NCBI GenBank assembly: GCA_015178975.1
Contig: WHVD01000018.1
Span: 536,001 to 600,000 of the forward strand
Reading direction: 5' to 3'
Length of the DNA: 64,000 nt
Origin: Hysterangium stoloniferum
Taxonomy: Eukaryota; Basidiomycota; Agaricomycetes; Hysterangiales; Hysterangiaceae
The notes under the pieces are model-generated. The model was not told the origin of the DNA. It saw only the letters and a program-made list of their open reading frames with translations, and made no database searches. Shown here in pieces: positions 9,619 through 64,000 of this stretch. The translations under genes and the position numbers were made by a program. Position 1 is the first letter of the stretch; each line of letters starts with the position of its first letter.

Positions 9619-9861
9619 CACAGATCTTGTGTTCACCATCCAGGGGTAGGCAGCATTTGCACCAAGCCTTCAAGCATTTCTTGTGGCTGTGGGATCATTC
9701 ATTAGGTTGTTGGTGATTCAACATTCAATGATGCATTTGATATGCTCAAATACACTATAACCTGCTTGTTTAATCACATGTGATCACTATTTTTAATTCT
9801 ATTTGTCATCATGTCTTTTTATGGCAATGTCAATGTGGGGGAGAAGTCGACCTGCCCAACA

Positions 9862-24627: not shown

Positions 24628-26280
24628 ATGACCACCCTGAGACGTATGTGTTTCTTCACGGTAATCGTGGTGGAATTGTTGGTGTATGTAAAATCCCAGA
24701 ATGTGCGTGCAAGAAACCCCCTCAATTTTCTTTGGCTTTAATCTATACCTGTTATTCCACTGTAGTTTCCCACTTGCTTCCAAGCCAGCTGGGTAGGTGA
24801 CTGGTACGAGACCTTCACAGAATGTCATTGTCATATTTTTGAAAACAGACATTTAATATGAAAGGACAGAGTCCCTGTTTAGGTAATTTTGTAGCAGTGC
24901 ACTCTCGTATGTCGTCACTGAGGAAACACTCCAGTCGCCTCCGTCCTTGAGAATGCATGTGGGGGGGGCCGTATGTCGTCCTACATTCTCCGTCATTAAA
25001 TGTTTTTAATATGGGACATCTTTAGCCTTTAATATTGACCCCCTCCAACCTAACCAACCCTACGCCCCACCGGCAGTCGATTCCGCCAATCCATGCACAT
25101 GCAATAGCGTCATATATTCTATGCTGTCCGCTTGTGCTATCTGTCAGGATGGTGAGATCACTCCGTGAGTATTACAGACGACTTTATATATATAATCGCT
25201 CTATAACACTGTCATCGTAGATGGCCAACTTTCATTGAGTTTTGTACACCCAGCATTGTGACTAATAAACAGTAAAACAACATACTGGTATATGATGCTT
25301 CCAACAATACTAATGAGATGTAAGATATCCCATGCCTCTTCCCAGTGGAATTTCCGTTCCTGCTTGGGCATACATGGATGTCGCTGTAATTCTGGACTCC
25401 TACATCTACGAAAGACTAGGGACTCATATGACCTACATAGGGCCACGGGATTTTCGACGAAGTCGCTGCTGAGGCACAGTCTGGACAAGCCCCTGATTCT
25501 TCTGCCGGCCCAGGCCCGACATCGTCCTTTGTCTTCCCAACCACTCCCGGGGTGGGCTCTCCGCTGCCAACCACACCCTTGATGGATTCTAATTCACACC
25601 ATAATAATGTCGGAGAAATAGTGGGCGGGGTTCTTGGCGGTATCGTGGACCTTTGTGCCATAGTGATTGTTGTGATTTATGTCGTTCGTATACCCCAAAA
25701 AATCAGGAGGGAGGATGGAAGACCTCAACAGGTTGTGCTGCTTCACCCCCCTGCAGCCCCGCCGACGCCAGGTGAAAAGCTTCAAATGAGGTCTTCTGTC
25801 TCCCCAACCGGACCTCCTCCGCCCGCCCCCCTCAAGTTATATGTAAGTAATCTCGACAACCACTTCACTAGTTGCGTCTTTTTATGTTACAATATACCAC
25901 ATTTAGGACCCTTCTGATCCGTTGTAAGCCTGGCGCCCCAGTCTTACTCATTGTCCTTTTGTTCCACTCCTTTGTTCTCATTGTCCTTTTGTTCCACTCC
26001 CTTGTTCCACTCCCTTTGTTCTACCACGTGATCACAGCATATAAAGCCTAGGTAGTTTTCCTTCTCTTTCCTTACTGTACGCTGCACTTGCCTGTATCCT
26101 GTCTTGTTCTGGACAATACACCGTGGTCCTGTCAACTCGTGTGACCGCCAGTGATCCCAATTGACGATGGGATTACATCCGTCCACCTTTCCACCGTCCA
26201 TTGCCCACATTCCCCCCCAAGGCCTCACTGGTGCCCAGGATGTGCCTAGCTCATTTATTCCACCTCCTGATAATTATAAT
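24628..26280 (+). pseudogene. Secreted/single-pass membrane protein, copy 1, last exon split by a solo LTR
   Basis: Agaricomycete family with a Cys-rich ectodomain, one transmembrane helix and a Pro-rich tail; function unknown, cell surface. Exons: signal peptide MTTLRRMCFFTVIVVELLVY (24628 on), short exon FPTCFQASW, exon TFNMKGQSPCL, exon with ENACGGG, exon CTCNSVIYSMLSACAICQDG (about 25085-25165), exon WPTFIEFCTPSIVTN, exon with the transmembrane helix (VGGVLGGIVDLCAIVIVVIY, about 25618-25680) and tail. The ENACGGG exon seems to be one base out of step with its paralogues (a longer G run near 24960). The final exon (DPSD...) is interrupted by the LTR at 25923-26177. Probably no longer functional. 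Confidence 0.72.
25923..26177 (-). mobile_element. Solo LTR, family G (255 bp), with TCCGT target duplication
   Basis: It has TG...CA ends on the plus strand (TGTAAGCC...GATTACA) and is flanked by TCCGT (25918-25922, 26178-26182). In its own orientation it contains a TATA-like TTTATATGCTGTGATCACG and ends GGCGCCAGGCTTACA, matching the LTRs at 28041-28260 and 30062-30295. A 33-34-bp sub-repeat (TTGTTCCACTCC...) is duplicated inside. Confidence 0.9.
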
Positions 26281-30354: not shown

Positions 30355-30897
30355 AATTAGCACAGTTCTTATTTAAGTGTTGACTTGAGCCGCTCTGCTG
30401 GCAAGGTATTCCCAAACACACGGGTGGCTGTGTGCATTTTTACTGTATGCGTGTGACAAATTCTGACAGATTGGCATCCATTAAAAGCTATGAGGTCTGG
30501 GTCCACGAAGATGTGAGGAAAGCATGACTAAAGGTAGTTCTGTCATTCAGAGGACCAGTCCATCCCTTGGGGTATTAGGAGTACTCAGGCAACTCTATCT
30601 TTACTCATAAATAGTGGCCCTCGAGGTAAGAGCAAGAAAACAACTTTAGAAAGATATTGCTATGATAATGACCCACATTGCTAATCCTCATGTGGTGTGT
30701 ACACTGCTGACCTACCATGGTTGCAGCTTGAGCTGCATAGCACTTGTGAATCAGAATTTGTTGGTTCCTGGCATCACAAGCACTTATGTGTCATTATCTC
30801 CCACCTCTTGTCTTAAAATTCCTGTTGATAGTTTATATATAAGGGAATGTGCATGGTTAGAAGTAACGATCCGTTCAACCTGAAGGCTGAAGGTGAC
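30355..30897 (+). repeat. Conserved upstream block of membrane-protein gene copy 2
   Basis: Matches 24060-24627 and 62785-63262 through the whole 540 bp (GTGGCTGTGTG, TCTGACAGATTGGC, GGAAAGCATGACTAAAG, GGTAAGAGCAAGAAAA, TTGTTGGTTCCTGG). Probable promoter region. Confidence 0.68.
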
Positions 30898-32362
30898 ATG
30901 ATCACCATAGGATGTGCGATCCTCTTTACAGGAACTGTGGCGGCATTGTTGGAGTATGTCAAATCTCAGAATGTGTGTGTGCAATCCTCCCTCAATCATC
31001 TTTTTGAGTTTAATCTATGCTGGCTATTCCACTGTAGTTTCCCACTTGTCTCCAACTGAACTGGGTAGGCGAATGGGTGCAATACCATCACAGAATGTTC
31101 ATTTAATGCTTTGAAAACAGACATTCAATATGAAAGGACAGAGTCCCTGTTTAGGTAACTTTGTAGCAGTGCATTCCCGTATGTTGCGACTGAGGAAACA
31201 AGCCAGTCACCTCTATCCTTGAAAATGCATGTGCGGGGGGCCGTGTATCGTCTTACATTCTTTTATATTATAGGTTTTTGATGCGAGACATCTTTAGCCT
31301 TTAATATTGACCCTCTCAAGCCTCACCAGCAGTCCGCTGCACCAAAAGCCAGTGCCACCAATCAATGCATATGCAGTAGCATCACGTATTCCATGGCATC
31401 CGCTTGTGCTGTCTGCCAGGATGGTGAGATTACTCCGTGAGTATAACAGACGACTCTATATATAATCACTATAATACTGCTATCGTAGATGGGCGCTTAC
31501 ATTGGCTTTTATGCACCTAGTAATGTGACTAATAAACAGTAAGACAACATACTCGTATACAGTGCCTCCTCCATACTCACATATGTATGATATGAGATAT
31601 CCTATGCCTCTCCCCAGTGGAATTTCGGTTCCTGCTTGGGCTTACATGGATGTTGCTGTTTATGAACTCCTTCATCGGCTTGAGGCCAAGGATTCATATG
31701 ACCTACATAGGCCCACGGGAATTTCGACAATATCGCTGTAGAGGCTCAGTCTAGACAAACTCCTGATTCCTTTGCTGGTTCAGCTCCAACATCCTCACGA
31801 CCATCCCTTTCATCTGGGATTTTCAGTACTTCTATAACTACTACTCCTAGTATTTCAATAATGACCAGTCCAGGAACTTTAACAACAACTGTCTTTCTCC
31901 CATCGCCTCCGATGGGTAGCTTTCCACTACAAACCACGCCTGCCATGGATTCTAATTTGCAACATAGCAGTACCGGAGCAATAGTGGGAGGGGTTCTGGG
32001 GTATTGTTGGCATCGGTGGCATAATTCTAGCCATAATTTATGTCCATTGCAAGTCCAGACACATCAGGAAGGAGGCGGTGAAGGATGAAAGACCTCAATA
32101 GCTTGTGCCACTTCAACCCCACACAGTCCCACTGATGCCGGGCGAAAAGCTTCAGATGAGGTCCTCTATCTCCCCGAGTGGACCTCCATCTATCCCTCCT
32201 AAATTATATGTAAGTAACTTAATCCACGACCTCACCAGTTGCACTTTGCAAGTTCCAATAATTGCCTTCAGGACCCTTCTGACCCATCCACCTTTCCGCC
32301 ACCAATTGGCCAGCTTCCATCCCAAGGCCTCACTACCATGCCATATGCATTCGGGTACACTG
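30898..32362 (+). pseudogene. Secreted/single-pass membrane protein, copy 2, truncated by an LTR
   Basis: Same family and intron positions as 24628-26280: signal peptide exon MITIGCAILFTGTVAALLEY; exon FPTCLQLNW; exon TFNMKGQSPCL; exon ICSSITYSMASACAVCQDG (about 31370-31430); Thr/Ser/Pro-rich stalk (about 31790-31930); transmembrane exon (GAIVGGVLG then GIGGIILAIIYVHC, about 31975-32045); Pro-rich tail and a final exon DPSDPSTFPPPIGQLPSQGL (from about 32270). There is a frame change inside the transmembrane exon and a TAG near 32098 where copy 1 has Gln, and the end is cut by the LTR at 32363. Pseudogene. Confidence 0.75.
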
Positions 32363-32493
32363 TGTTGGATTTTGGGAATCTGATATGTGAGCAACAAGGA
32401 GCATGGACCATACACCTATATTAGTAAGCAGTTACTGGGCATATAGATATAAGGACAATACATGTATTGTAGTCCTTATCTGTTTGTAACAAG
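32363..32493 (+). mobile_element. LTR fragment, family J
   Basis: Starts TGTTGGATTTTGGG and matches 57240-57355 closely. It is cut by the next LTR at 32494. Inserted in the last exon of membrane-protein copy 2. Confidence 0.7.
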
Positions 32494-40502: not shown

Positions 40503-43500
40503 ATGACTCCGCAGTTTGCACAAGATCTTAGTTACGCCGAATCACAGAGACCGTTTGTCTCAGGTATTAAATCGCAGTTTACACTTATTCTAAACTGAGG
40601 CACGCAAACAGAACAAGGGACGACTAACCGTCGAGCTTCGTCTACTAAGATTCCCTCCAGTCGCGATAATGGCTTAGAAAGCGAAGATGATAACCCTCAT
40701 AGCAAGCACGTTAGATCTGATTCAATCATATGGTCATTATATCTGAAGGAAACGGAAAAAGAGGATAAAGAACTTGCCAACTCATTGCAAGTTGGTGTCG
40801 ACCAGCTTCTCATATTTGTATGTTGAATACGATTTCTTTTCTCTATTACCATTCTACTAATTCAGAGTTTTTCAGGCGGGTTTGTTTGGGGCGATTCTTT
40901 CCGCCTTCCTGGTCGAAAGTAAGAAAGATTTGCAGGTAGATCCTGTTCAGGAAATCCTTCAGGCACTTCAAAATCACTTCGCTGTAACTGCCTCTCAGCC
41001 TTTTGAAGTCTCCAAATCATCCCTTATTGTCAACTATTTATGGTTCGCGAGTCTGGGTCTGACTCTCTTTAGTGCTCTTTGTGCTGTACTTGCAAGAGAA
41101 TGGCTGGCGAAGTATATTCCTGTATCACCCGGACGTCACTCAAGTGATGCATGCCAACGTCTCCTTCGTGTTAAGAGAGCACAGCAATGGCGCCTCGAGT
41201 CAGTTGTTGCTGGAATCCCGCTTTTCATTCAACTGGCTCTCTTCCTTTTCTTTGCAGGTCTCGTCTTATTCACCTGGAATACAAATGTGGCTTTAGGCGT
41301 TCTTATGCTGTTTTTGACCATATTTGCAATCGTGCTATATATACTTGGCACCGTTTTTCCTTTGTTATCCCCCGCTTGTCCCTTTCAGACAACAGCGTCG
41401 CGGTTTTTTCCAGTCATCTCTGCAAATGCCAAGTATGACGCGTCCACATCAAACTATTGTGGGTCTTTGCCACGGACAGGAACCTATACATTCAGAATTT
41501 CACAATGGTCAAAAAGCCTTTCTCGGTTCTTCGCCGAATTGTATGGTAAGCCTCCACGGGCCGAACTTGAAGCTGATGTCCTGGCATCGACGATTGCAAA
41601 ATCCACATCAGAGGAGGCAGTTAACGAGGCACTTAGGGCTGTGGCAGGTGCTAAACAATGTGAACGGTTGCGAGTTGCCTTGTGTCAACTAGCCGTCGCG
41701 GAGAAATTATGCAAAATTTTAGAGAACTGCTTTCACCGCCCCGCAGGCGTTGTCACTGTATGTGATGCAGCGCTTGCAGAAGTTTCTCTCCTTGCAATGT
41801 CACGAGTCCTATCACCGCCAACAGACAAACTCATGAACAAAGAGTACCTTACGCCCTTCAAAACACTCTTACAGGTTGGGGGGCCATTACATCGGTTGGA
41901 CAATTTAGATCCTTGTGTGAAGACATTGGGGTGGGCGGTTCATATTGGGATTCGGGTAAACATGGATGATGATGATCTAGAGGTGCCGACAGCCTCACAC
42001 ATTGAAACAGTCGCCACTATGGGTTCAGCACCATACGAGCGAAGGACGTTAATGACGGCGACTATTGATGGAGCACTGTCAGAAAAGAGGGGTTTACTTA
42101 TAACCTGCGAACGGTTAATATTAGGATATTGGCATCTTCGTAGGGTTTTTTCCATGGCTCAGTGAAGAAACTAATTGATGACCAGCGGATTGCCGGGAAA
42201 TGCTGAAAAAAAGGGGGTTAATAGCAGGTAAACTGTACCTATCCCATGAGTCGAAATACATATACCCAATTATTAGCACAACAGGAAAAGAAGAAGAGTG
42301 GCTGAGGAAAGTGGCTGAAAAAGAACATCATAGCGAGGAACGATTACTATTGGAATGTGGTAAGAAAACGCCAAGTAGAGGACGAGTACGATTTAATATG
42401 CACCGGTGTGCAGCTAGGTCCCCAACTGGCGTCGTAGGTGCCATTCCCAAAATTGTGGGACTTTTGAAGAATTCCAACTATTCGGTTCGATCAAGGACAA
42501 TATCGACCCTGGAGGAGGTTTCAGGACAAGGTTTGGTGTGTGATAATGTAGTGTGAATACAGCTGACATTTGACCACAGCCGAATTTCGAGCCGTCATTG
42601 CGGATGTCATTCCCTATATTATTGCACTGTTGAAGGATTCTGACTCTGGCATTCAATCAAGCACACTATCGGTCCTGGGGAAGGTTTCAGAGCAAGGTGC
42701 GTTGTGTGATGATGGGATGGGAATCCGGCTGACACTTGATCATAGCCGAATTTCGAGCCGCCATTGCACCTGCCATCCCCTCCATTGTTGCACTGTTGAA
42801 GGAGTCTGAGTTTAACGTTCGATCAAGCGCACTATCGGTCCTAAAGAAGGTTTTAGAGAAAGGCGCGGTGTGCTATACTGGGATGGGAATCTAGCTGACA
42901 TTTGGCCACAGCCGAATTTCGAGCCACCATTGCGGGGGTCATTCCCGACATTGTTGCACTGCTGAAGCACTCTGACTCCGACCTTCGATTACGCGCAGTA
43001 TCGGTCCTGGGGAAGGTCTCAGAGCAAGGTGCGGTGTGTGATACTGGGATGAGAATCCAGCTAACACTTGACCACAGCCGAATTTCGACTTGCCATTGCA
43101 CCTGCCATTCCCCACATTGTTGCACTGTTGAAGGACTCTGACTCTGACGTCCGATTAAACGCATTATCAGCCCTGGAGCACGTTACAGAGGAAGGTGCGG
43201 TGTGGTAATAGAATGTGAATCCACCTGACATTTGACCACAGCCGAATTTCGGGCCGCCATTGCGGGTGTCATTCCCGACTTTATTGCCATGTGGAAGGAT
43301 TCTGGCTGGCGCGTTCCAGAAGGTACAGTATCGGTCCTGGGGAAGATGTCAGAGCAAGGTGCGGGGTGTGATCATGGGATATGAATCCAGCTGACATTTG
43401 ACCACAGCCGAATTTCGAGCCGCCACTGCGGGTGTCATTCCTGGCATTGTTGCACTGTTGAAGCACTCTGCCTTTGACGTTCGATCAGGCGCAGTATCGG

Positions 43501-46500
43501 TCCTGGGGAGGGTTTCGGAGCAAAGTACGGTGCGGGATACTGGAATGAGAATCCAGCTGACATTTGACCACAGCGCAATTTCGAGCCCTTATTGCGGGTG
43601 TCATTCCCGACATTGTTGCACTGTTGAAGGACTCTGACTGGCGCGTTCGGTCAATCACAGTATCCTTCCTGGGGAAAGTTTCAGAGACAAGTGCGGTCTG
43701 TGATACTGGGATGAGAATCCAGTTAACACTTGACCACAGCTGAATTTCGGGCCCCCATTGCGGGTGTTATTCCCGACATTGTTGTACTGTTAAAGGACTC
43801 TGACTGGCGCGTTCGATTAAGCGTACTATTGGTCCTGGGGAAGGTCTCAGAGCAAGGCGCGGTGTGTGCTACTGGGATGGGAAACCAGCTGACATTTGAC
43901 CACAGCCGAATTTCGGGCCGCCATTGCACCTGCTATCCCCTCCATTGTTGCACTGTCGAAGGACTCTGAGTCTGACGTTCGATCAAACGCACTATCGGTC
44001 CTGGGGAAGGTCTCAGAGCAAGGCGCGGTGTGTGATAATGGGATGGGAATCCAGCTAACACATGACCACAGCCGAATTTCGAGCTGCCATTGCGCCTGCC
44101 CTTCCCGACATTATTGTACTGTTGAAGGACTCTGACTGGCGCGTTCGCTCAAACACAGTATCTTTCCTGGGGAAGGTTTCAGAGCCAAGTGCGGTTTGTG
44201 ATACTGGGATGAGAATCCAGTTGACATTTGACCACAGCCGAATTTCGAGCCCCTATTGCGGGTGTCATTCCTGACATTGTTGCACTGTTGAAGGACTCTG
44301 ACGGGCGCGTTCGATTAAGCGTACTATCAGTCCTGGGGACGGTCTCAGAGCAAGGCGCGGTGTGTGATACTGGGATGGGAACCAGCTGACATTTGACCAT
44401 AGCCGAATTTCGGGTCGCCATTGCGGGTGTCATTCTCGACATTGTTGCGCTGTTGAAGGACTCTGACTCTATGGTTCGATCAAGCGCACTATTGACCATG
44501 GAGAAGATTTCAGAGCAATGTGCGGTCTGTGATACTAGGATGAGAATCCAGCTGACATTTGACCACAGCCGAATTTCGAGCCGCTATTGTACCTGCCATT
44601 CTCGACTTTGTTGTACTGTTGAAGGATCCTCATGATCACGTTAGGTCAAGCGCAGCATCGGCCCTAGTGAAATTTTCAGAACAAGGTGATCCTGATTCAT
44701 TAAATCTTGTTGAAGGATTTGTCTTAAGACTCCATAGGAGAGTTTCTCCCTCTCCTCAGGGTTGACATACTTGCGGCGGTAGGATTATCAGATAAAATGC
44801 AACCGACGCTGCTTGATTCTGGTGCAATCGCACTTCAAACCATTTCCATTCCCTCTGTTTTTCCTTCTCATTCTGCGCGATATCGCGGTAATCTCACAAA
44901 TGTGCCCGATAAACGAGACCTTTCCGGATTGCCTGCCCGTCGTCTATCGTCAATTGTCGATCTCTTGCACAGTACTGATAGTATTTCGCGTCATGAAGCC
45001 ATTAGGATTATTCGATGTGTAAAAGTTACATGTATGTGAAGAGAGGTCATATATTATTCATTGACTAATTTCCATACCACTTATAAAGCGCTAAATTTTT
45101 ACCTTTCCTTATCCAAATTCGACCTCAGAGCCCAAGAGGGAAAGATTACTCTGCTTGAGGTGGTCACTGCTCTGCATATGTTTGGTATGTGCACAAATTC
45201 TCCTTCAACTGCCACGATTCATGGACTTGCAGACGCATTTGGACCCGCCATTACACACGCCATTGCCAACATTGGTGCACTGTTGAAGGACACTGACTCT
45301 AACGTTCGATCAAGCGCAGTATCGATCCTCGAGAAGGTTTCAGAACAAGGTGCGTTGTTTGATACTGGAATGGGAACCCAGCTGACATTTCACCACAGTC
45401 AAATTTCGAGCCCCCATTGCAGGTGTCATTCCCGACATTCTTGCACTGTTGCAGGACTCTGACCGGAGGGTTCGATCAAGCGCAGTATCCGCCCTGGGGA
45501 AACTTTCACAGCCAAGTGCGGTCCGTGCTACTGGGATGATAATCCAGCTAACATTTGACCACAGCCGAATTTAGAGCTGCCACTGCGGGTGTCATTCCCG
45601 ACATTGTTGCACTGTTGAAGCACTCTGACTCTGGCCTTCGATCAAGCGCAATATCGGTCCTGGAGAAAGTTTCAGAGCAACGTGCGGTGTGTGATAATGA
45701 AATGGGAATCCAGCTGACATTTGACCGCAGCAGAATTTCGAGCCCCCATTGCGGGTCTAATTCCCGACATTGTTGCACTGTTGAAGCACTCTGACTCTGG
45801 CATTCGATCAAGCACACTATTGGCCCTGGAGAAGGTTTCAGAGCAAGGTGCGATGTATAATAATGGAACGGGAATCCAGCTGACATTTGGCGACAGCCCA
45901 CTTTCGAGCCGCCATTGCGGATATCAATCCCGACAATGTTGCACTGTTGAAGCACTCTTACTCTGACGTTCAATCAGGAGAAGTATCGGTCCCGGGGAAG
46001 GTTTCAGAGCCAAGTGCGGTCTGTGATACTGGAATGAGAATCTAGCTGACATTTGACCACAGCCGAATTTCGAGCCCCCATTTTAGGTGTCATTCCCGAC
46101 ATTGTTGCCCTGTTGAAGGACTCTGACTGGCACATTCGATCAAGCGCAGTATCCGTCCTGGGAAAACTTTCACAGCCAAGTGCGGTCTATGATCCTGGGA
46201 TGAGAATCCAGCTGACATTTGACTACAGCCGAATTTCGAGCTGCCATTGCGGGTGTCATTCCCGACATTGTTGCATTGTTGAAGCACTCTGACTCTGGTC
46301 TTCGATCAAGCGCACTATTGGCCCTGGAGAAGGTTTCAGAGCCCAGTGCGGTCTGTGATATTAGGATGCGAATCCCGCTGACATTTGACCACAGCCGAAT
46401 TTCAAGCCGTCATTGCTGGTGTCATTCCCGACATTGTTGCACTGTTGAATGACTCTGATTGGCGCGTTCGATCAAGCGCAGTATCTGTTCTGGGGAAAGT

Positions 46501-48742
46501 TTCAGAGCCAAGTGCAGTCCGTGATATTGGGATGAGACTCCAGCTGACATTTGACCACAGCCGAATTTCGAGCCGTCATTGCGGATGTCATTCCCAACAT
46601 TGTTGCACTGTTGAAGCACTCTGACTCTGGCCTTCGATCAAGCGCAGTATCGGTCCTAGGGAAAGTTTCAGAGCCACGTGCGGTTTGTGATAGTGGGATG
46701 GGAATCCAGCTGACATTTGACCGCAGCCGAATTTCGAGCCGTCATTGCGGGTGTCATTCCCGACATTGTTGCACTGTTGAAGGACTCTGACAATGACGTT
46801 CGATTAAGCTCACGATTGGCCCTGGAAAAGGTTTCAGAGCAAGGTACGGTGTGTGATACTGGGATGATAATCCAGTTAACATTTGGGCACAGCCAAATTT
46901 CGAGTCGCCATTGCCGGTGTTATTCCCGACATTGTTGCACTGTTGAAGGACCCTGACTGGCGCGTTCGATCAGCCGCAGTATCCGTCCTGGGGAAGGTTT
47001 CAGAGCAATGTGCGGTCTGTGATACTGGGATGAGAATCCTGCTGACATTTGACCTCGGCTGAATTTCAAGCCGCCATTGCTGGTGTCATTCCCGACATTG
47101 TTGCATTGTTGAATGACTCTGACTGGCGCGTTCAAACAACGGCAGTCTCCGTCCTGAAGAATATTTCAGAGCTAAGTGCGGTCTGTGATACTGGGATGAG
47201 AATCCAGCTGACATTTGACCACAGCCGAATTTCGAGCCGCGATGGCAGGTGTCATTCCCGACATTGTTGCCATGTGGAAGGGTTTTGACTCGCGTGTTCG
47301 ATCAAGCGTAGTATCCCTTCTGGGGAAACTTTCACAGCCGAGTGCGGTCTCTGACACGGATGAGAATCCAGCTAACATTTGACCATAGCCGAATTTCGAG
47401 CCGTCATTGTTGGTGTCATTCCCGACATTGTTGCACTGTTGAAGCACTTTGACTCTGGCATTCGATCCAGCGCAATATCGGTCCTGGAGAAGGTTTCAGA
47501 GCAATGTGCGCTGTGTGATGATGGGATGGGAATCCCGCTGACATTTGACCACAGCCGAATTTCAAGCCGCCATTGCTGGTGTCATTCCCGACATTGTTGC
47601 ACTGTTGAATGACTCTGATTGGCGCGTTCGATCAAGTACAGTATCCGTCCTGGGGAAGGTTTCAGATCCAAGTGCGGTTTGTGATACTGGGATGAGAATC
47701 CAGTTGACATTTGACCACAGCCGAATTTCGAGCCCCTATTGCGGGTGTCATTCCTGACATTGTTGCACTGTTGAAGGACTCTGACGGGCGCGTTCGATTA
47801 AGCGTACTATCAGTCCTGGGGAAGGTCTCAGAGCAAGGCGCGGTGTGTGATACTGGGATGGGAACCAGCTGACATTTGACCATAGCCGAATTTCGGGTCG
47901 CCATTGCGGGTGTCATTCTCGACATTGTTGCGCTGTTGAAGGACTCTGACTCTATGGTTCGATCAAGCGCACTATTGACCCTGGAGAAGATTTCAGAGCA
48001 ATGTGCGGTCTGTGATACTAGGATAAGAATCCAGCTGACATTTGACTACAGCCAGATTTCGAGCCGCCATTGCGGGTCTCATTCCCGACATTGTTGCACT
48101 GTTGAAGCACTCTAACTCCGGCGTTCGATCAAGCGCACTATTGGCCCTAGAGAATTTTTCAGGGCAATGTGCGGTCTGCGATACTGGGATGAGTATCCAG
48201 CTGACATTTGACTACAGCCGAACTTCGATCCGCCATTGCCATTGTCATTCCCGACATTGTTGCACTGTTGGAAAATACAAATTTCCAAACTCAAACAACA
48301 GCTGTTGACCTGCTCCTTAAACTAGCGGCTTATGGTGTGTGCCTTGACACGCAATTCAACACGCTCCCCTCACCCATGTTTTCAAAGATTGCCTTCGTAA
48401 AGTTATTATTGGCTGTAACCTCGAGCATTATTGTATATCCCTTGTTGCCGCCGAAAAGGATATAGTCGTTTCGGCTGGTGGAAAATTGTTTGTAGCTTTT
48501 GCTCAATATGGTAAGCTTTGATTCTTTGCACCATTGACTTCTTTTATTGTCTTGCAGGTTATCTTCCAAACATTAAGCTGTGGATAGTTCTGTCTGCACT
48601 GTGCCACCTATATTTCCCTATATCACCTCTAAAACATCGTTGTACACTGATTGTCATCCTCTTGAAATCTTGTAAGTGTTTGTATCCTCTAGTTGTCATA
48701 AATCCTGATCTTCGTAGCTTGTGTAAGCCACACTGTTCTTGA
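40503..48742 (+). CDS. DUF6535 membrane module fused to a 33-unit HEAT-repeat solenoid
   Basis: My model has about 43 exons and about 2,000 residues. N-terminal exons: 40503-40563, 40612-40817, 40876-42139, 42186-42227 and 42285-42359, with introns of 46-58 nt that all keep frame. They encode DUF6535 (IIWSLYLKETEKEDKELANS, LLIFAGLFGAILSAFLVES, SLIVNYLWFASLGLTLFSAL, then two more helices GIPLFIQLALFLFFAGLVLF and LMLFLTIFAIVLYILGTVF): a four-helix membrane anchor widespread in agaricomycetes. Then come 33 single-exon HEAT repeats in two blocks (42414-44685, 45233-48334) joined by a non-repeat linker. The C-terminal exons are 48388-48510 and 48558-48742. No stop was found in any exon. One splice acceptor (before 47059) reads CGG instead of AG. 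Function unknown; surface-variable repeats behind a membrane anchor suggest a sensor or scaffold (inference). Confidence 0.85.
42414..44685 (+). repeat. HEAT exon-intron tandem array, block 1 (14 units, 166-bp period)
   Basis: Exon starts: 42414, 42580, 42746, 42912, 43078, 43242, 43408, 43574, 43740, 43906, 44072, 44238, 44403 and 44569. Each exon is 117 nt, phase 1, coding 39 residues of the type EFRAAIAGVIPDIVALLKDS followed by a variable turn and VRSSALSVLGKVSEQ. Introns are 47-49 nt, begin GTGCGGT or GCGCGGT, contain the branch-like CAGCTGACA and end CCACAG. Introns are as conserved as exons, so the duplicated unit is genomic. Confidence 0.95.
45233..48334 (+). repeat. HEAT exon-intron tandem array, block 2 (19 units)
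   Basis: Exon starts: 45233, 45399, 45565, 45731, 45897, 46063, 46229, 46395, 46561, 46727, 46893, 47059, 47225, 47389, 47555, 47721, 47886, 48052 and 48218. Same unit as block 1. The first (DAFGPAITHAIANIGALL) and last (ELRSAIAIVIPDIVALLENT) are the most diverged, as usual for capping repeats. The intron before 47059 lacks the AG. Confidence 0.95.
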
Positions 48743-49251
48743 AGTTGCTCATATTGTATCCTTCATCATACATTTCATGGAGGATATTTCTTTTGAGTGC
48801 ATTCAGGCTTTGATTCTGCAAATGGATAGACATGGACTATTAACAACATTGTAGTTTCACAAATGTAGTTTATGAGTGGATGAATGGTGAAAACTTTACC
48901 TACTGTCACATATCATTCATATCAGATCCACATGTACATATTTGCTACTTTGTGCCACTTGTTGTTATCCCTTCTGTCAGATGTTACAATTCAGCATACT
49001 AGATACATGTTGTGTACTACTGTGGTCCCATAGTTAATGTTCCAGTAATTCTCACTACTTCATTGTCAGAGTGGGTTGCTATAATTCAGTGATTTGGACT
49101 GGAAAAGTTGAATTTGCATCTCTAACAATATGTATGATTAACCTGATCTTTAACCTTATACATGATAATCCCTTTGAAGGAGTGTATGTGGGAGGTGTTA
49201 GGATCCACACCTTTTTGGACCTCCAATCATCTGTTTTACTTGGTATAGATA
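48743..49251. other. Downstream flank of the DUF6535-HEAT gene, no gene
   Basis: About 500 bp of non-coding sequence. A TGTTAGGATCC start at about 49196 may be the beginning of an LTR into which the Tc1 composite at 49252 inserted. Confidence 0.4.
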
Positions 49252-52200
49252 CAGTAGGGGACAAAACTGTCCCAATGTTTTGTTAATTCTGATTAAATGG
49301 TTTATTACTAGTCAAATAAATTTCCTAACATTGTGGAAATATTCTCAGATATACCTGAACATACTAACCCTCACATATCCAAAGATGATGTAATTCGGAT
49401 GGGAATTGGTATCACAGTGAATATTTAAAAATAACCAATCATTGGAACAGTTTTGTCCCCTGCTCTTTTCACTGATTTTACTCTATCATAACATCCACTA
49501 GAGGAATGGAAAATTTCCAAAATAAATCATGTGACATATATTCAATGTTCTAATTGATATGTGACTGTGACAGTCACATTTCAACTATTACTCTCATCAT
49601 GAAAGCTATTTCTCCTCTCAAAAGAGGATAGGCCATCTCTCTCCTCCAAAATAGACTCTCCAATAGGAATGTGGCCTCTATAATAGGTCTTATCAAGTCT
49701 CCTAATAAGTGAAATTGGTCAGGAGATGAACATAGACAAATAAAACCTGAAAGGAGGATGTTCTTCCAAGCTTTCCCCTATTAATTAAAGGAGGATTATA
49801 CATCAAATCACCTCTAGCAAGTTAGATACTGTAATGCTGTCCAGGCCATATATTATGCAGAATTCATCCTTCCTTCAATCTCTGTAAGCATTCCCACTCC
49901 ATTCCAACCCATACAACCCCACACCATGATATTTCCACCTCCATACTTGACTGTAGGTTAGGTTGTCCTATCAGAAAGTGGTTCTCCAGCTTTCTTCCAC
50001 ATATATTGATGTCTGTCTGATCCAATCTTATTTATATTGGTCTCATCAGACTACAAGACCCTTTTCCAATCATCCACAGTCCAGTTTTGGTATGTACTTG
50101 AAGACAAAGCTTAACCTGCCTTTCTATATTGAGCCTTGAGCAAAGGCCTTTTTGCTTTGACTACAGGGGTTAAAACTGTGCTGTTTCAAGGTCCTCCTGA
50201 CTGTTTTGGATGAGACATGGGATTCATTGATGGAATTGATGAAGTATGTGGCCTGGACAGTTGTTATGTATTTCTAAGTTTTTTCCGATTTTTTAAACAA
50301 TTTCCCCTAACAAATTGCAAAAACAAATATTTAAATGTAATTATATTGCGACAATAAAATTGTACAATATTGTTTTGATTTATCTTGAATTTATACAATT
50401 TATTTTGTATTTTTATCTTATAAATTGAGCAAGTTATTGAGTTTCTACCTTTTATTCTTTTTTGATTAATATGTCGATGACTCAGCACTTATGCACAACG
50501 CACAAAAAGATCATGTGATATTCACATGACATTTCAAACTCCGATGCTGACAAAATGCAATTTGAAATACTTGCATTATCAAGGCGAAATATATATATTA
50601 TATTATTATAATAAAATATTATTATATTTATAACTAACTAAAAATAAATATAGTAATTATAATAATATAAAGCCGACCACCTGTGTTTATTACACGGTGC
50701 ACGGGAAAATCGTTACAACAAGTGACAGCCATCACAACAGGTGACAGTTGTCACAAGGTGCGATGGTCACAGAGGCGTGTGATGGTCATACAGGCGTGTG
50801 ACAGTCACAAGACACGAAGGGTGTCATGCACGTGGCGCACACAGGTCCGAGAGCATTATGTCATCATATATGCTACTATAGCAAAAACCGGAAATTCCCT
50901 GGAATATTCCAGTGACTGCCAAAGGAATGGTAGTTAATAGGTACTAATAATAGATAGAATATTGTAGAATATTCTGTAAGTTTCCAGAATGTTCTATTAT
51001 GCCAAGAATATTCTATAGTGTCTTAGAAGTAGTTAGAACCTTCCACAATGCTCTAGAAAATTCTAGAAAATTCTAAATGACATCATTCCTTCTAGAATGA
51101 CATCACTCAATCTTCTAGAATCTTCTAAATGTCTCAGAATAAAATGTACATAAGGAGCTCAGCTCCAGCCCTGAATATAATCTTAATCTTAATAAATCAA
51201 TCTTATCATCACATCAACCTACCACATCTGTGTGTGTCACTGCAGCAAGCAGGCTACTCCACCCCTATCTGGGCAGTTGGACATCTCATTCCACCTCTAT
51301 CAGAGCTGTTGGAAACCCTTGCCACCTCTATCAGAGTTGTTGGAAACCCTTGCCACCTCTATCAGAGTTGTTGGCCAATCAGATCCCTTGTCACCTCAAT
51401 CTGAGTTGTTGACTTTTATTTGTTCCCCTTGCCACTTCTTAATTGAATAGCTGGCTATCTTTTATATATTATTTCCACCTCAGTTAGAATTGTTGGTTAT
51501 CAATCAATAATATATAAATAATCTCATACTATAGTCATCTCTTAATTGAGTACTGATTATTAGTTTTCTCTACATTGTTATTTGTAGTCTAAGACTTCAG
51601 TCACCTCTAGTTGAGTAATTTGACTGTTTATTGCATTACAAATAATCCCTGTTCTATTGTTCATTCATTGTGAATCAGCAAAGCATATTCACATAAATAA
51701 ATACTGAGAATATCCTTGCAAGATCCTAAGACTACATTAAGATCCTGATAAGTTAATATCACAGTAGACCTTGTAGATTAGTGTAAATAAAGCATATATT
51801 AGCCAAATAGTGTTTTATTCTATATCTAATCTTTTGACCTGTTTATAAATATTTTTACTGTTTGATAAATAGTATAAAATATATATAAACTAGCTAGTAT
51901 TGAAGTTAAATCTAGCTTCAAAATCAGTAAATTGTTATTCTTATTTTAATAGTTGTTGTCACAGAAAAAGAACAAGCTTGCACAAGCAGCTCTCAAAACC
52001 TTCTTTGCAAAGTAGGGTGCATATATTCAAGTAAACTCTTGACTTCAGGGATTCTAAGTCTATTTAGGCTGCCACTGATTAATATCAAATACTTAAATTA
52101 TTTTACCTTGCAGTGAATTGAGTATTTGCACATCTTGAAGAGCATTGGACTCCTTTTTTGGAAAATAGTATTAAAATAAGGCTAATACATTACAACAGTA

Positions 52201-52774
52201 TTATCTAACTTGCCAGAGGTGATTTGATATATAATCCTCCTTTAATTAATAGGAAAAAGCTTGGAAGAACATCCTCCTTTCAGGTTTTATTTGTCCATGT
52301 CCATCTCCTGACCAATTCTACTTATTAATAGACTTGATAAGACCTATTATAGAGACCACATTCCTATTGGAGAGTCCATTTTGGAGGAGATGGCCTATCC
52401 TCTTTTGAGAGGAGAAATAGCTTTCATGATGAAAGTAATAGTTGAAATGTGACTGTCACAGTCACATATCAATTAGAACATTGAATATATGTCACCTGAT
52501 CTATTTTGGAAATTTTCCATTCCTCTAATGGATGTTATGATAGAGTAAAATCAGTGAAAAGAGCAGGGGACAAAACTCTCCCAATGATTGGTTATTTTTA
52601 AATATTCACTGTGATACCAATTCCCATCCGAATTAGATCATCTTTGGATATGTGAGGGCTAGTATATCCAGGTATATCTGAGAATATTTCCACAATGTTA
52701 GGAAATTTATTTGACCAGTAATAAACCATTTAATCAGAATTAACAAAACATTGGGACAGTTTTGTCCCCTACTG
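49252..52774. mobile_element. Fold-back Tc1/mariner composite made of two head-to-head 5' halves
   Basis: TA-flanked (49250-49251, 52775-52776) with Tc1 terminal repeats at both ends, same family as 12813-14413. The left part (49252 to about 49860, +) runs from the terminal repeat through the N-terminal transposase coding region (MKAISPL.., 49599 on). The right part is the same 5' region on the minus strand (52774 back to about 52200), interrupted by the family L element, and continues on the minus strand at 50261-49863 into the catalytic middle (WSDETNIN.., GCMGWNGVG). The two meet near 49860, so arms of about 575-600 bp form a long inverted repeat and the transposase C-terminus is absent. 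Both coding copies are broken. Confidence 0.85.
50262..52197 (-). mobile_element. Family L element, copy 1
   Basis: About 1.9 kb. On the minus strand it starts TGTTGTAATG and ends ATACATAACA. It lies in the right half of the Tc1 composite, between GATAATAC and CTGTCCAGG on the minus strand. No gene. It contains TTCTAGAA-type clusters (51000-51125), a TATA-like segment (ACATAAGGAGCTCAGCTCC, about 51149) and a tandem CACCTCTATCAGAG repeat (51290-51370, about three units of 31 bp). Order of parts matches the reverse of 33384-39430. Confidence 0.6.
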
Positions 52775-52776
52775 TA

Positions 52777-57000: not shown

Positions 57001-57239
57001 ATCCTGGATCGCTATCGAACATCACCACTTGCCATTATCGCTTGTAGATAGGATTTGCAATTGGATTGGGAGTGGGAGTCAAAGTGATGGACAACTATGT
57101 GTGGATTCAAGGAGCATATTCGAGAGGGAGATTGTTGTGGTTGTCTCAAGGAGTTCAGGCAGGTGAACTCGGGGATAGGATTAAGGGAGTGCTCTTATTT
57201 AGTGTCATCTCCTTGTGCTCGAGGGAGTGTGTTGGATTT
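54031..57239 (+). mobile_element. Internal region of an LTR retroelement (family J), degenerate
   Basis: Starts with a primer-binding-like site (TGGTGATCTGGGCTGG) and runs to a purine tract (GCTCGAGGGAGTG) before the LTR at 57240. A gag-like region lies at 54084-55180: a Ser/Thr/Lys-rich N-terminus (MTVGGAGVSRIPTPTGKPKT) followed by helical sequence (WLSRLHHIALADTLLPHERT). No pol motif was recognised. Superfamily uncertain; Copia is suggested only by layout. An old fossil with many breaks. Confidence 0.5.
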
Positions 57240-57745
57240 TGGGAATCTGATATGCAAGCAACAAGGAGCACAGACCATACGCCTATATTAGTAAGCAGTT
57301 ACTGGGCATATAGATATAAAGACGATACATGTATTGTAGTCCTTATCTGTTTATAATGAGACTCATTTCGTATTACAATACACTGGTGGTGGTCCAACTG
57401 CTCAGGCTCTTCTGGGCTCATTCATTCCTCTTCCTAACAATCATCCTTCTGGGCATATAGATATAAAGATGATACATGTATTGTAGTCCTTATCCGTTTA
57501 TAATGAGACTCATTTCGTATTACAATACACTGGTGGTGGTCCAACCACTCAGGCTCTTCCAGGCTCATTCATTCCTCTTCCTAACAATCATCCTTCTGGG
57601 CATATAGATATAAAGATGATACATGTATTGTAGTCCTTATCCGTTTATAATGAGACTCATTTCGTATTACAATACACTGGTGGTGGTCCAACCACTCAGG
57701 CTCTTCCAGGCTCATTCATTCCTCTTCCTAACAATCATCCTTCAG
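57240..57745 (+). mobile_element. 3' LTR of family J with an internal triplication
   Basis: Starts TGTTGGATTTTGGGAATCTG after a purine tract. The second half consists of three tandem 147-bp units (57302-57742). It matches the LTR fragment at 32363-32493. The right flank (57746-57850) resembles the 3' flank of the membrane-protein gene copies. Confidence 0.7.
57302..57742 (+). repeat. Tandem repeat, three units of 147 bp, inside the family J LTR
   Basis: Units start at 57302, 57449 and 57596 with CTGGGCATATAGATATAAAG. Units two and three differ at very few sites; unit one is slightly more diverged (GACG for GATG, CTGCTCAGG for CCACTCAGG). Confidence 0.92.
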
Positions 57746-58555: not shown

Positions 58556-59853
58556 TTATGGCATGAGATCTTCATATCGGGACAAAATAGGGGAAGTTGG
58601 CCGCAGAAACGTGGACGAATCGGAAGGGTCCTGAATTAATTACTGAGAATTGCGACACGCCACAGTGAGGGATATATTGAGACTACTTACATATGACTTG
58701 GGGGGAGGAAGCAACGCAAATTATGACCTTCTTCCACGCGTCACTGCCGTTTTTATCTTCCCCATCCAAATCTGACCGAAACGAGAAATGCCTACAATCA
58801 CGCCAACGCCACCAATAGCGATGCCAAAATTGGTATTATTATTGTATGTTCTTTTGAACTAGAACCCTTCGGAGGCGTAGTTATAAATCCGGTTGCTGTT
58901 GCTGTTGTGCTTTTTGTTGGCGTCGCCACAGTTAATGTGAAGGTATGGGATATTGATATTCCAGTCGGAGCTGGGCCGGAAGAAGAATCGGGAGCTTCTT
59001 CAGACTGGATCTCAGCAGCCATAACGTCGAAACTCCCGAGGGCCTATATAGGTCATCAGTTTCCGGCCTCACAGATGTAGAAGTTCAGAATTACAGCGAC
59101 ATCCATGTAAGCCCAAGAAGGAACCGAAATCCCGCTGGGGATGGGCATGGGATATCTTGTGTCTCGTGTTAGTATTAATGGAAACATCGTATACGAGGAT
59201 GTTGTCTTACTGTCTATCAGTCACAATACTTGGTGTACAAGATTGATTCCATGAAGACCACCTACGATAGCAGTGTTATAAAGCAATTATATATAAGGTA
59301 GTCAGTAATATTCACGAAGAAACCAAGCCACCCTGACAGACAGCACAAGCGGACACCATGGAATACGTGACACTGCTGCATGTACATAAATTGGCGGCAG
59401 CAACTATTGGTCCATTGTAGCGACCACCAGGGTGAATAGTGTCAATATAAAAGGCTAAAGATGCTTTGCATCAGAGACCTTCAAATAACGAGGAATATTG
59501 GATAACGCACGACCCCCGGCGCATACATTCTCAAGGGCGATGGCCACTGGATTGTTTTCTCAGTGATGAAAGAAGGGAATTCGCTGCTACAAACTTACCG
59601 AAACAGGGACTCTGTCCTTTCGTATTAAACGTCTTTCCATAGCGTGAGAACAACGTTCTGTGAAGGTGTTTCACCAGTCACCTACCCAGTTCGCTTGGGT
59701 GCAAGTGGGGAATGATGACTACAGTGGAACGGTGGGCATACGTCAATGTCGAAGATTGATCCAGTGTCTTGTACGCACCGTTTGGGCTTTGACGTACTCC
59801 AAGAATGGGACCACACTTGCCGCGAGGAAAAACGCATGTCTTAGGGTGGTCAT
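58556..59853 (-). CDS. Secreted/single-pass membrane protein, copy 3 (best preserved paralogue)
   Basis: Same family and intron pattern as 24628-26280, more diverged. Exons on the minus strand: signal peptide MTTLRHAFFLAASVVPFLEY from 59853 to 59779; SSFPTCTQANW (from 59718), then TFNTKGQSPCF; ALENVCAGGRALSNIPRYLK; a Cys exon with YNGP and CTCSSVTYSMVSACAVCQGG (about 59330-59400); WSSWNQSCTPSIVTD; YPMPIPSGISVPSWAYMDVA (about 59105-59165); a Thr/Ser stalk followed by the transmembrane helix IIIPILASLLVALAGVGVIV (about 58785-58850); and a last exon DPSDSSTFLRPTSPILSRY ending at 58556. All exons are open, but the acceptor before the YNGP exon is not obvious. Likely cell-surface protein of unknown role. 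Confidence 0.68.
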
Positions 59854-62142
59854 TTTGGGTTCAAGTTGAACAGACCACCATTCCCCCACCTCACCATGCA
59901 CATAGCTTAATATAAACTTTCAGCGCGAGTATCGAGATGAGACCTGGGAAATAATAAATGAAGAGCCTTCGCCAACAAGTTCCGATGAATGTGACATGAC
60001 ATTAGTTCTTGGCAAGAATTTCTGCCAGTCGATAGTCGATATTGTTTGACATCGGAAAGAGATTAATTCCCTCGAATTTATACACCTGATCATTCCGACA
60101 TGCCTGCTTCCGACGAACGGCTGTCTCGTGCGTCGCGTTTGTTTCACACACTTCGAGAATTTTGGAGTTAATTTGCGGCAATAAGTCCTAGCACCTTTCC
60201 CTCACCCCAATCATACCCAATACACTGGGATCCCCCATCAATCGGCGTTGGTGCCTGTTGCTCTTCAGGAGCCTGGCGATTGGAAAACCGTGTGAACGCT
60301 CTTAGGAGACATTGCACGTGTTAAAGAACTGGTCTGCAACGATGAATTATGGTGAGTACTCCCTATTGTTAGTACGATATATCATTATTCAATCCTGGTT
60401 AGCGACGATGAACCACTGTGGAAATGCTGCATAGTATTCGATACCGTTAAAGTGACGTATACAGTGCGTACGTACCACGTAGGCAGTACCAAAATATACG
60501 ATAGGTCCAAAACAATGTCAAATGGTGTGACTTGGAGATGGTCAATGTATAACAATGAAGCAAAACGGGGGAGGTGACAGGATCAGCATCAAGAAAGAGT
60601 CAATAGACTGTTGAAAGGCTGCTGTCTAATGCAGCCTTACATTGGCATCGGTCCAGACGTTGATAGGACCAAACTGTATTCCTCGAGAACGGCGAGTACG
60701 ATACACGATGATGACGGTAAGTAAAACGATATGAAAAAACTACTATGCGCGTCTGTGATAACGTAATCAGTATGTCGTAAGCCACCAGGCTTACAACTGT
60801 CGCCCTGTTGACGATAAAATTGTTTGACTATTCCTATGCCACATGAGAGTGCCATTCCCGAATACTCCGTTGCACGCCATGTTTCCTCGTTGTGTAGCTG
60901 AATTGATTCTCGGCGAGCCGTCCGGCCACTTCTTTTGTCCCTCTCCCCAGCATAGCCTCAGCGACCTTGCTCAGTTAAAATCCACTTGACCTCTTTCTTC
61001 CATGCCTGATAATTATCGACATTGAGTGGATCGATAAAATGCAGAGAATTTGACTGGCTGGTAAGTGAAATTATTGACGACTGTTGTTTGATTGGCAATT
61101 TAGAGGCTATTCGTTTTGTTGGCTGCTAGCACGAGGCCCGATAACCTGTTGAAAGGCTGTTGGTATCAGCCTCACTCAGTCAGCAACGGACAGGACAAAG
61201 TTCTCTTTGTTGATCATAGGGGGAGAACATGATAGCTATCTGGTAGGGGGGTGGAATAACTAACTACCCTCGGAAAGGACTATTGTCAATCTAATATATC
61301 TGAATTAACAATGGGATGATGGAAATAAGGTTTAAGGAATTATAAATAGAACAAAAGGATGATCAAGGCAGAGAGATAAAATAATAGATCTTGATCGGGT
61401 CAGAATAATGTAGCCAATGTGTGGTAAGACGGGCAGGATTACACCTGTCGTCTAAATGGAGTGAAGACAAAGGATAATATATTATTCAGGTAGCTCTGCC
61501 CACTATTTATACTATTCTACATGTGGCAGTTCCGTGTAAATGCTGATTAATATTCCCGTTAATATCCTATTTACAACATGACCTACCTTGAGAAAGTCAC
61601 ACTCCATTAATAATGAGGCAACTTCAAGGTCTAGGATGAATGGCTCATTTTATGCTGCATAGCTGGCCTAAAAGAAGAGGAGGAGAAGCAAAATACAAAA
61701 GGGGGAAAGGAATGCTAGATTCTGGTAGGTCAATTGTGTTGAGTTAGTCCACACATGTGTCCCCAAGTAGCAACCATGAGCTTTGTAAATGCTCAGGTTG
61801 TAAGAGTGCACTGTATTGTATGCACTGTTAATCATAAATTAGAAAATTAAATGTGCTCTTCTTCGTCTCTACTACTACTACTATGTCTCATTATCAAGGT
61901 CAGATGACCCAATCTCTTCCGAGTCATCCTTTTCCACCCTTTTAGCACGCTTCCTCCGAGCCCACTCCTTTGTCTGCACATACTTTGGTTTCACCACCTT
62001 CGCCTTTTACTTGCCCTCACCCTTCTCCTTAACATGCTCATCTAAGCTACTGCCAACAGAACTCGAACTAGTTTCTGAACTTGAGCTAGACAAGGTACCG
62101 CATGGTCAAGGATGGTCAGATTTTCTTCTGTATATAATCTAA
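59854..62142. other. Long gap without a confident gene; two LTR-G-like repeats
   Basis: The first 300 bp should hold the promoter of the minus-strand gene. Minus-strand open stretches at 59920-60147 and 60637-60855 have no recognisable motif. Sequence with family G LTR features (TGTTGAAAGGCTG start, CCAGGCTTACAAC end) lies at 60611-60798, and a similar start recurs at 61148. 61870-62095 is, on the minus strand, Ser/Lys-rich (YVQTKEWARRKRAKRVEKDD), perhaps a transposon-encoded tail. Confidence 0.4.
60611..60798 (+). repeat. Family G-like LTR relative
   Basis: Shares TGTTGAAAGGCTG, GTTGATAGGACCA.ACTGTATT and CACCAGGCTTACAAC in order with the LTRs at 28041-28260 and 30062-30295, with much divergence between. 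Probably an old related LTR. Confidence 0.5.
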
Positions 62143-62784: not shown

Positions 62785-63262
62785 TCGGTGTGGCTGTGTG
62801 CGTATGGTGTTTATTTTATTTTACGGTGTGCGTGTGATCAATTCTCACAGATTGACGTTTATTAAAAGCCATAGGGGCCATATTCACGAGGGGATAAGGA
62901 AAGCATGACTGAAAGTGACCGTTTTATCATTTAGTCTCGCCACTCAGGCTACTCAAGTAACTCTATCTTCACTCATAGATAGTCGCTGTCGAGGTAAGAG
63001 TAAGAAAACGAAGTTATGAAGAACATTCCATGGTAATGACCCACGTTGATAAGTCTCGTGTGGTGTGCACCCCGCTAAGCTACCATTGTGTACTACAGTT
63101 TGAGTTGCATAGCACCTGTGAATCGGAACTTGTTGGTTCCTGACTGCAGGCTCTTTATGTGTAATACTTTCCCACAACTTTTCTCAGCACTACTCGTATT
63201 TACATTTTATATAAGGCAATCTGCATGGTTAGGAAAAGCTATCTGTTCAAGCTGAAGGTGAC
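62785..63262 (+). repeat. Conserved upstream block of membrane-protein gene copy 4
   Basis: Homologous to 24060-24627 and 30355-30897 (GTGGCTGTGTGCGTATGGTG, GAGGGGATAAGGAAAGC, GAGGTAAGAGTAAGAAAACG, AATCGGAACTTGTTGG). It starts just after a GC-rich hAT-like end (62740-62780). Confidence 0.7.
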
Positions 63263-64000
63263 ATGACCACCCTGAGACGTGCGTTTTGCTTCACGGCAAC
63301 TGTGGCTGGATTGTTGGGGCATATCAAAGCTCAGAGTGTGCGTGAATAAAACCTCTTCAATATTATTTTGATATTAAAAATGTATGCCCGCCATTCCATT
63401 GTAGCCGTCATTCCCCACTTGTCTCCAAGCGAATTGGGTAGGCGACTGGTGCGACACTTGATAGAATGTTGTTCTCATATGTTGAAAAAAAGACATTTAA
63501 TGAAAAAGGCCAGAGTCCCTGTTTAGGTAATTTTGCATTAGGGCACTCCCGTATGTTGTCACTACTGAGGGAACAATTCAGTCGCCTCCGCCCTTGAGAA
63601 TGCATGTGGAGGGGGTCGTACGTTATCCTACATTCCTCACCATTTAAAGGTTTTTAATGCAAAACATATTTAGCCTTTAATATTGACCCTCTCCAACCTC
63701 ACAATCAGTACGATGGTCCGGCTGCCAATGCTGCCAATCCATGCACATGCAGCAGTGTCACTTATTCCATGGTGTCTGCTTGTGCTGTCTGTCAGGATGG
63801 CGATGTCACTCTGTGAGTATCATAGACGAATCTCTATATAATGGCTTTATAACGCTGCTATTGTAGATGGTCGCTCTCGTGGATTGAGTTTTGTACACCT
63901 AGTATTGTGACTAATAAACAGTAGGACAACATACTCGCATACGATGCTTCCATCAATACTAATGAGACACAAGATATCCCATGCCCATCCCCAGTGGGAT
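63263..64000 (+). CDS. Secreted/single-pass membrane protein, copy 4 (runs off the window)
   Basis: Same family. Exons: signal peptide MTTLRRAFCFTATVAGLLGH; PSFPTCLQANW; TFNEKGQSPCL; ASALENACGGGRTLSYIPHH; YDGPAANAANPCTCSSVTYS followed by MVSACAVCQDG (about 63710-63800); then GT-AG bounded exons matching WxxF..C and IPSG. Introns of about 50-60 nt are at the same positions as in the other three copies. Every exon seen is open, so this copy may be functional. The transmembrane part lies beyond position 64000. Confidence 0.72.

Follow-up and report, generated by a model that had tools for sequence, protein, structure and literature searches.

A putative membrane-anchored HEAT-repeat protein encoded by frame-neutral exon cassettes in Hysterangium stoloniferum

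The window analysed here is a 64,000-nt stretch of the genome of Hysterangium stoloniferum (assembly GCA_015178975.1, contig WHVD01000018.1, positions 536,001 to 600,000 of the forward strand), and all positions below are counted from its first letter. Splice paths were enumerated and scored on this one stretch of genomic sequence, giving a single + strand gene model of 41 exons at 40503-48742, with 6264 nt of coding sequence including the stop, 2087 amino acids and no internal stop codon (Table 1). Profile searches of the spliced model revealed a DUF6535 domain joined to 33 HEAT repeats. A previous sequence-only reading of this DNA had proposed both the fusion and a continuous, stop-free model, and the coordinates that it gave were exactly those recovered here.

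The introns of the model were in phase 1 in 39 of 40 cases. Their donors were 35 GT and 5 GC, their acceptors 39 AG and 1 GG, and a YTRAY branch motif lay close to the acceptor in 36 of them. Our initial choice of intron between DUF6535 and the first repeat unit produced stops, and intron 42140-42185 was taken from the enumeration in its place. At the 3' end, an unspliced version in which the frame of unit 33 runs straight to a stop was dropped in favour of the spliced tail ending at 48742.

Table 1 Features of the predicted DUF6535-HEAT gene (positions in the window)
Feature	Position	Strand	Basis or remark
Exons 1-2, N-terminal part, about 85 residues ahead of the first hydrophobic segment	40503-40563, 40612-40817	+	Splice model
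Exon 3, bulk of DUF6535 with its four hydrophobic segments, then a region without Pfam match	40876-42139	+	Pfam, hydropathy
46-nt intron with GTAGGG donor, ACTAAT branch and CAG end	42140-42185	+	Best of 52 enumerated paths
Exon 4, linker	42186-42359	+	Path enumeration, splice model
HEAT units 1-14, one 117-nt exon each	42414-44685	+	Splice model, Tandem Repeats Finder period of 166, Pfam HEAT
Exon starts of units 1-7	42414, 42580, 42746, 42912, 43078, 43242, 43408	+	
Exon starts of units 8-14	43574, 43740, 43906, 44072, 44238, 44403, 44569	+	
Exchanged tract, 380 bp	44185-44564	+	4 mismatches vs 47668-48047
Two divergent exons between units 14 and 15, where the model is weakest	44738-45031, 45089-45184	+	Path enumeration, splice model
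HEAT units 15-33, one 117-nt exon each (first 45233, last 48218-48334)	45233-48334	+	Splice model
Intron with GG end instead of AG, ahead of unit 26	47010-47058	+	Splice model
Partner tract	47668-48047	+	4 mismatches vs 44185-44564
C-terminal exons, no Pfam match	48388-48510, 48558-48742	+	Splice model, Pfam

The repeat array matched the HEAT_2 profile at E 2.5e-101 (332.6 bits, cut-off 27.7) and the HEAT profile at E 1.1e-96 (307.8 bits, cut-off 23.5). These scores come from a first version of the model, which has the same repeats as the final one and differs from it in the middle and the tail; a two-unit piece by itself exceeded both cut-offs. Every one of the 33 repeat exons measures 117 nt, is in phase 1 at both ends and has a GT or GC donor exactly 117 nt past the acceptor. 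Within the two runs of repeats there are 31 inter-unit introns, of which 27 measure 49 nt, two 48 nt and two 47 nt, so that length departures number 4 of 31 among the introns as against 0 of 33 among the exons. Tandem Repeats Finder reported a 166-bp period over 42485-48270, which is not a multiple of three because each period consists of a 117-nt exon and a spliced intron of 47-49 nt. An unspliced reading of the array was ruled out, as the 166-bp unit shifts the frame, and a non-coding satellite was ruled out by the single open frame, the profile matches and the constant exon length. Retention of a single intron led to a premature stop for 33 of the 34 array-region introns tested; loss of a whole 117-nt phase 1-1 exon leaves the frame intact. 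The predicted gene is an array of frame-neutral exon-intron cassettes, a layout that the sequence-only reading had not spelled out.

That reading had also called the repeats near-identical, which overstates their likeness: mean pairwise identity was 77% for exon DNA (33 units) and 64% for protein (30 units), and only 8 of 435 protein pairs reached at least 85%. Units 1, 15 and 33 were left out of the protein pairs as divergent, and likewise out of the substitution counts, the radical-change simulation, the residue variability and the codon model described below. From the HEAT profiles and the alignment to the PP2A scaffold A subunit (PP2A-A) given below, the array is predicted to fold as an alpha-solenoid. 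Seven joined repeats had no relatives in viral contigs, and the sole match beyond these was a bacterial HEAT-type sequence with 24% identity (prokaryote genome contigs, L001). The titles listed in literature searches on repeats, exons and fungal recognition pointed to no HEAT gene with one exon per repeat in fungi.

DUF6535 (PF20153, IPR045338) was matched over its full profile, positions 1-177 of 177, on residues 61-224 (E 1.6e-44, 152.4 bits, cut-off 23.9). The four strongest hydrophobic segments, at residues 86-104, 144-162, 203-221 and 227-245, all belong to DUF6535. The hydropathy threshold of 1.5 was also exceeded, less strongly, by windows at residues 379-397, by others within some of the HEAT units and by the tail of the version scanned, which was the first version of the model and has the same N-terminus as the final one. 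The four-helix DUF6535 module of the earlier reading was thereby recovered as a full-length profile match with four hydrophobic segments, and we infer a membrane topology for the protein. DUF6535 is an agaricomycete family, as that reading also had it, and together with the small introns it points to a fungal origin of the window. No Pfam family was matched (E up to 1) by the roughly 340 residues that separate DUF6535 from unit 1. The exon carrying DUF6535 had no match in the PDB or in PADLOC, each at E up to 1, and no relative in viral contigs, the only collection scanned with this exon. A single-sequence AlphaFold prediction of the exon alone was too poor for use, with a mean predicted local distance difference test score (pLDDT) of 46.2 and a predicted template-modelling score (pTM) of 0.28. 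No second DUF6535 or HEAT copy was found elsewhere in the window by tblastn (E up to 1). A DUF6535 gene appears among the down-regulated transcripts of Flammulina velutipes reported in PMC12387923.

The join between DUF6535 and the array needs only one splice (intron 42140-42185), and the frame from 42186 enters unit 1 stop-free whether intron 42360-42413 is removed or not. After unit 14 the array is broken by two exons encoding about 130 divergent residues, and it is at 44686-45232 that the splice model is least certain. The frame leaving unit 14 hits a stop at 44765 unless intron 44686-44737 is removed. This intron replaced a previous choice, 44686-44782, with the same frame and a longer exon; it was selected by reading the sequence and is not among the scored paths shown. 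Its donor is weak (GTGATC) and it lacks a clear YTRAY branch motif. The piece comprising the divergent exons and unit 15 had only HEAT/ARM-type Pfam matches, all below the cut-offs. The locus could instead hold two adjacent genes, one with DUF6535 and 14 HEAT units ending at 44765 and the other with 19 units starting within 44738-45232, an arrangement favoured by the read-through frame that ends at 44765, by the poor signals of intron 44686-44737 and by the 242 alternative splice paths enumerated across the middle region. We consider it unlikely, however, since the joined frame is open and consistently in phase 1, and a second gene using the first ATG past 44765 would leave a gap of only a few tens of bases. 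DUF6535 remains fused to 14 units either way, and this part of the prediction would stand even were the remaining units a separate gene.

Constraint on the coding frame was evident from the distribution of stop codons over the 33 repeat exons: the coding frame contained none, compared with 48 and 47 in the other forward frames and 51, 84 and 13 in the reverse frames. About 11.3 stops were expected from the inferred substitutions, as against 0 in any unit. Parsimony over the 30 units counted 190 replacement and 83 silent changes (273 in all); their ratio, 2.29, compares with 2.13 expected and puts the ratio of replacement to silent rates (omega) at about 1.07. In the reconstruction, one of these 273 changes runs through a stop codon; one of 155 variants would be a stop if placed singly on the consensus. 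Fourfold sites and second codon positions were almost equally diverse (nucleotide diversity 0.207 and 0.206), and introns less so (0.15). Hydrophobic positions carried 14 radical changes vs 21.9 ± 3.2 in simulations (p 0.011), and non-hydrophobic positions 68 replacements vs 58.3 simulated (p 0.013); the depletion and the excess are not independent, as the total is fixed in the simulation. These results show coding-frame constraint and indicate some constraint on the hydrophobic core.

Evidence of exchange within the array came from a 380-bp tract whose two copies, in units 18 places apart, differ by 4 mismatches (Table 1), with flanks that are 85% identical over 242 bp on the left and 73% over 126 bp on the right. 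The pair is the product of a recent gene conversion or segmental duplication. The GC-donor introns after units 12 and 30 are both 48 nt long and both lie inside the exchanged tract. For correlation tests we used 25 units, dropping units 1, 14, 15 and 33 and those with introns other than 49 nt. The distance between units climbed little with their separation (r 0.115, p 0.074). Calculated separately for each exon half and for the intron, the distances correlated at r 0.17, -0.03 and 0.02, compared with about 0.3, with a wide spread, in a tree-like simulation; one of the three correlations was clearly lower at matched divergence.

We then located the variation along the repeat. Variability peaked in the A-B turn: residues 24 and 23 ranked first and second, and turn residues 20-24 varied more than the remainder (permutation p 0.018), in agreement with the variable turn positions that the sequence-only reading had described. 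Mean heterozygosity rose from 0.22 in helix A, the most conserved part, to 0.41 in helix B and 0.51 in the turn, with helix limits that we assigned from the HEAT pattern. Variability was high as well at residues 6, 29, 30, 32, 34 and 39, and the substitution types at each position (units 1, 14, 15 and 33 excluded) showed that residues 29, 30 and 32 vary mostly among small or hydrophobic residues.

A 273-residue query from the array had PP2A scaffold A chains as its closest solved sequences (E 1.2e-14); designed alphaRep proteins, Vac8, importins and transportins came next among the best 60 of 78 matches. The best PP2A match includes a weaker stretch (18.4 bits) that sets 'DSDWRVR' of the array opposite 'DKSWRVR'. 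Residues 22 and 23 there fall on the serine and tryptophan of the 'SWRVR' turn, which we tentatively number, by position in the printed chain, as S256 and W257 of the PP2A-A alpha isoform. PMC6558005 describes intra-repeat loops of PP2A that contact its B and C subunits, as well as a mutation hotspot at S256 in HEAT 7. The most variable residues of the array lie at a PR65-type partner-contact site, as would befit a binding surface able to vary. The array resembles PR65 in that its HEAT units align over most of the query. The repeats of PR65 are more diverged, and PR65 is not known to have a membrane anchor. The predicted protein differs from it in having 33 repeats at the protein identity given above, as against 15 described for PR65 (PMC6558005), together with four hydrophobic segments.

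We put forward, tentatively and at somewhat short of an even chance, that the gene encodes a membrane-tethered HEAT-solenoid binding protein with changeable repeat number and face, acting as a receptor-like sensor or adaptor. DUF6535, with its four hydrophobic segments, would hold the protein in the membrane, and about 1290 residues of PR65-like HEAT repeats would form a long superhelix whose turn/B-helix ridge would bind a partner. Unequal crossing-over, gene conversion or exon skipping could add, remove or swap whole repeats in frame, because each repeat is a 117-nt phase 1-1 exon with an intron of near-fixed length. The ridge would be free to change and the hydrophobic core would be held. 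The variable ridge presumably binds something; its ligand may be changing or nonself, and the role of the protein may be that of a receptor-like sensor or an adaptor. The sequence-only reading had suggested a membrane-tethered binding scaffold or surveillance protein. The scaffold interpretation fits the four hydrophobic segments, the long HEAT array and the protein-level constraint, and is likely; a role in surveillance, as a sensor, is possible.

Several observations count against a sensing protein with a changeable face. The evidence comes from the sequence of one genome stretch, and the literature searched by family name and identifiers yielded no function for DUF6535. A codon model, fitted from several starts with wide steps, likewise gave an omega of 1.07, indistinguishable from 1 (twice the difference in log-likelihood, lnL, 0.24). 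A class with omega above 1, estimated at 1.72 for 37% of sites, improved twice the lnL by 5.71 over its null, and plain rate variation with omega 1 fitted better than this class (lnL -1410.28 vs -1411.16). The fit on 30 units gave no support for positive selection, in a test of little power, since recombination among units would make their tree unreliable. The excess of replacements at non-hydrophobic positions was accompanied by a like excess of silent changes (24 vs 20.8), and the ratio, 2.8, is as expected. The variable residues 29, 30 and 32 are core-like, so that variation extends beyond the exposed ridge. The splice sites are imperfect as well: 1 of the 31 inter-unit introns, 47010-47058, has a GG acceptor, and 5 of the 31 have GC donors (42863-47885; after units 3, 9, 10, 12 and 30).

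These splice sites, together with an omega of about 1, are what would speak for early decay, in which a formerly functional gene is now losing its splice sites and amino-acid constraint. Opposed to decay are the 33 repeat exons that have acquired neither a stop, with about 11 expected, nor a change of length, and the radical changes at hydrophobic positions that are fewer than simulated. GC-AG introns are a spliceable minor class, and the frame at unit 26 is kept either by skipping this unit or by using an AG 12 nt downstream. We regard decay as distinctly improbable. The omega estimate, and the fact that no class of sites above 1 is supported when rates may vary, also agree with a housekeeping membrane scaffold of the PR65, adaptin or Vac8 kind, loosely constrained, in which the cassettes would be a by-product of growth and the ridge variation tolerated drift. 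Scaffolds and adaptors (PP2A-A, Vac8, importin and transportin) are among the best 60 of 78 solved relatives, and the array falls under the 85% internal-conservation mark of recognition repeats, as described below. Binding to a fixed partner should, however, place the contact face under purifying selection, and the observed peak of variability in the turn (p 0.018) runs counter to this. The housekeeping explanation is possible, if somewhat doubtful to us.

The proposal of a changeable binding protein was further compared with the NOD-like receptors (NLRs) of fungi, whose sensor repeats the sequence-only reading had likened to this array. Fungal repeats of high internal conservation (HIC) are defined in PMC4986451 by over 85% identity across at least 100 residues, and HEAT is named among such NLR repeats in PMC12222747. 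With the HIC repeats of fungal NLRs (WD40, ANK, TPR and HEAT) the array shares exchange of related repeats within the array, here seen in one 380-bp tract with 4 mismatches, and a peak of variation at the presumed binding turn. These two points uphold the likeness; others do not. Besides the 8 protein pairs mentioned above, no run of 3-5 adjacent units averages 80% identity, and the largest set in which all pairs reach at least 85% consists of three non-adjacent units, 9, 12 and 30. Diversifying selection at the ridge, a further mark of HIC repeats, was not favoured: the turn is most variable, yet rate variation alone fits better. Unlike fungal NLRs, the predicted protein has an N-terminal membrane module and no detected NOD, and there is one intron per repeat, whereas the word 'intron' is absent from the main text of both papers. 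Neither NACHT nor NB-ARC was found in Pfam at E up to 1, residues 1-568 matching DUF6535 only and the C-terminal piece nothing; this negative is drawn from the protein pieces searched, the middle one included, and from the fact that what remains consists of repeats, the listing for the whole protein comprising 25 of 41 families. On this evidence the predicted gene is filed neither as an NLR nor as an HIC repeat gene. The protein may work like an NLR sensor.

The surroundings of the gene were surveyed across the window. Just downstream lies an inverted pair, 49250-49828 and 52202-52776, with 95% identity; it is 79% identical to 12823-13402, where an open reading frame (ORF) matches a Tc3-type transposase helix-turn-helix. 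By these matches, a transposon-like element flanks the gene. Ty3/gypsy-type pieces occur at 16025-20148, with gag, integrase and chromodomain in ORFs 16025-16837 and 18436-20148. An 18-bp minisatellite (ATGTTCACATGTTCAACA) at 9020-9622, with 33.5 copies at 99% identity and several open frames, looks recent. Related stretches of about 0.9-1.4 kb with 71-76% identity were found at 24130-25526, 30438-31796, 58964-59986 (- strand) and 62790-64000, and these four perhaps form a local multi-exon gene family. One ORF, 25441-25914, encodes a hydrophobic glycine-containing segment and matched no Pfam family at E up to 0.01. A 147-bp tandem repeat is present at 57302-57743 in 3 copies (97%), and 57228-57356, which overlaps its start, recurs at 32361-32489 with 94% identity.

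If the model holds, symmetric exons and near-fixed introns would let a repeat protein vary its length and binding face with the frame undamaged, and the uncharacterised DUF6535 family would gain a concrete context as the membrane anchor of a binding solenoid. The gene would also offer a testable candidate for recognition outside NLRs. A bolder and, in our estimate, unlikely extension is a class of fungal membrane receptors without a NOD, in which DUF6535 would replace the NLR engine, the cassette HEAT solenoid would serve as the sensor, and a repertoire would arise through recombination and skipping of the 33 symmetric exons.

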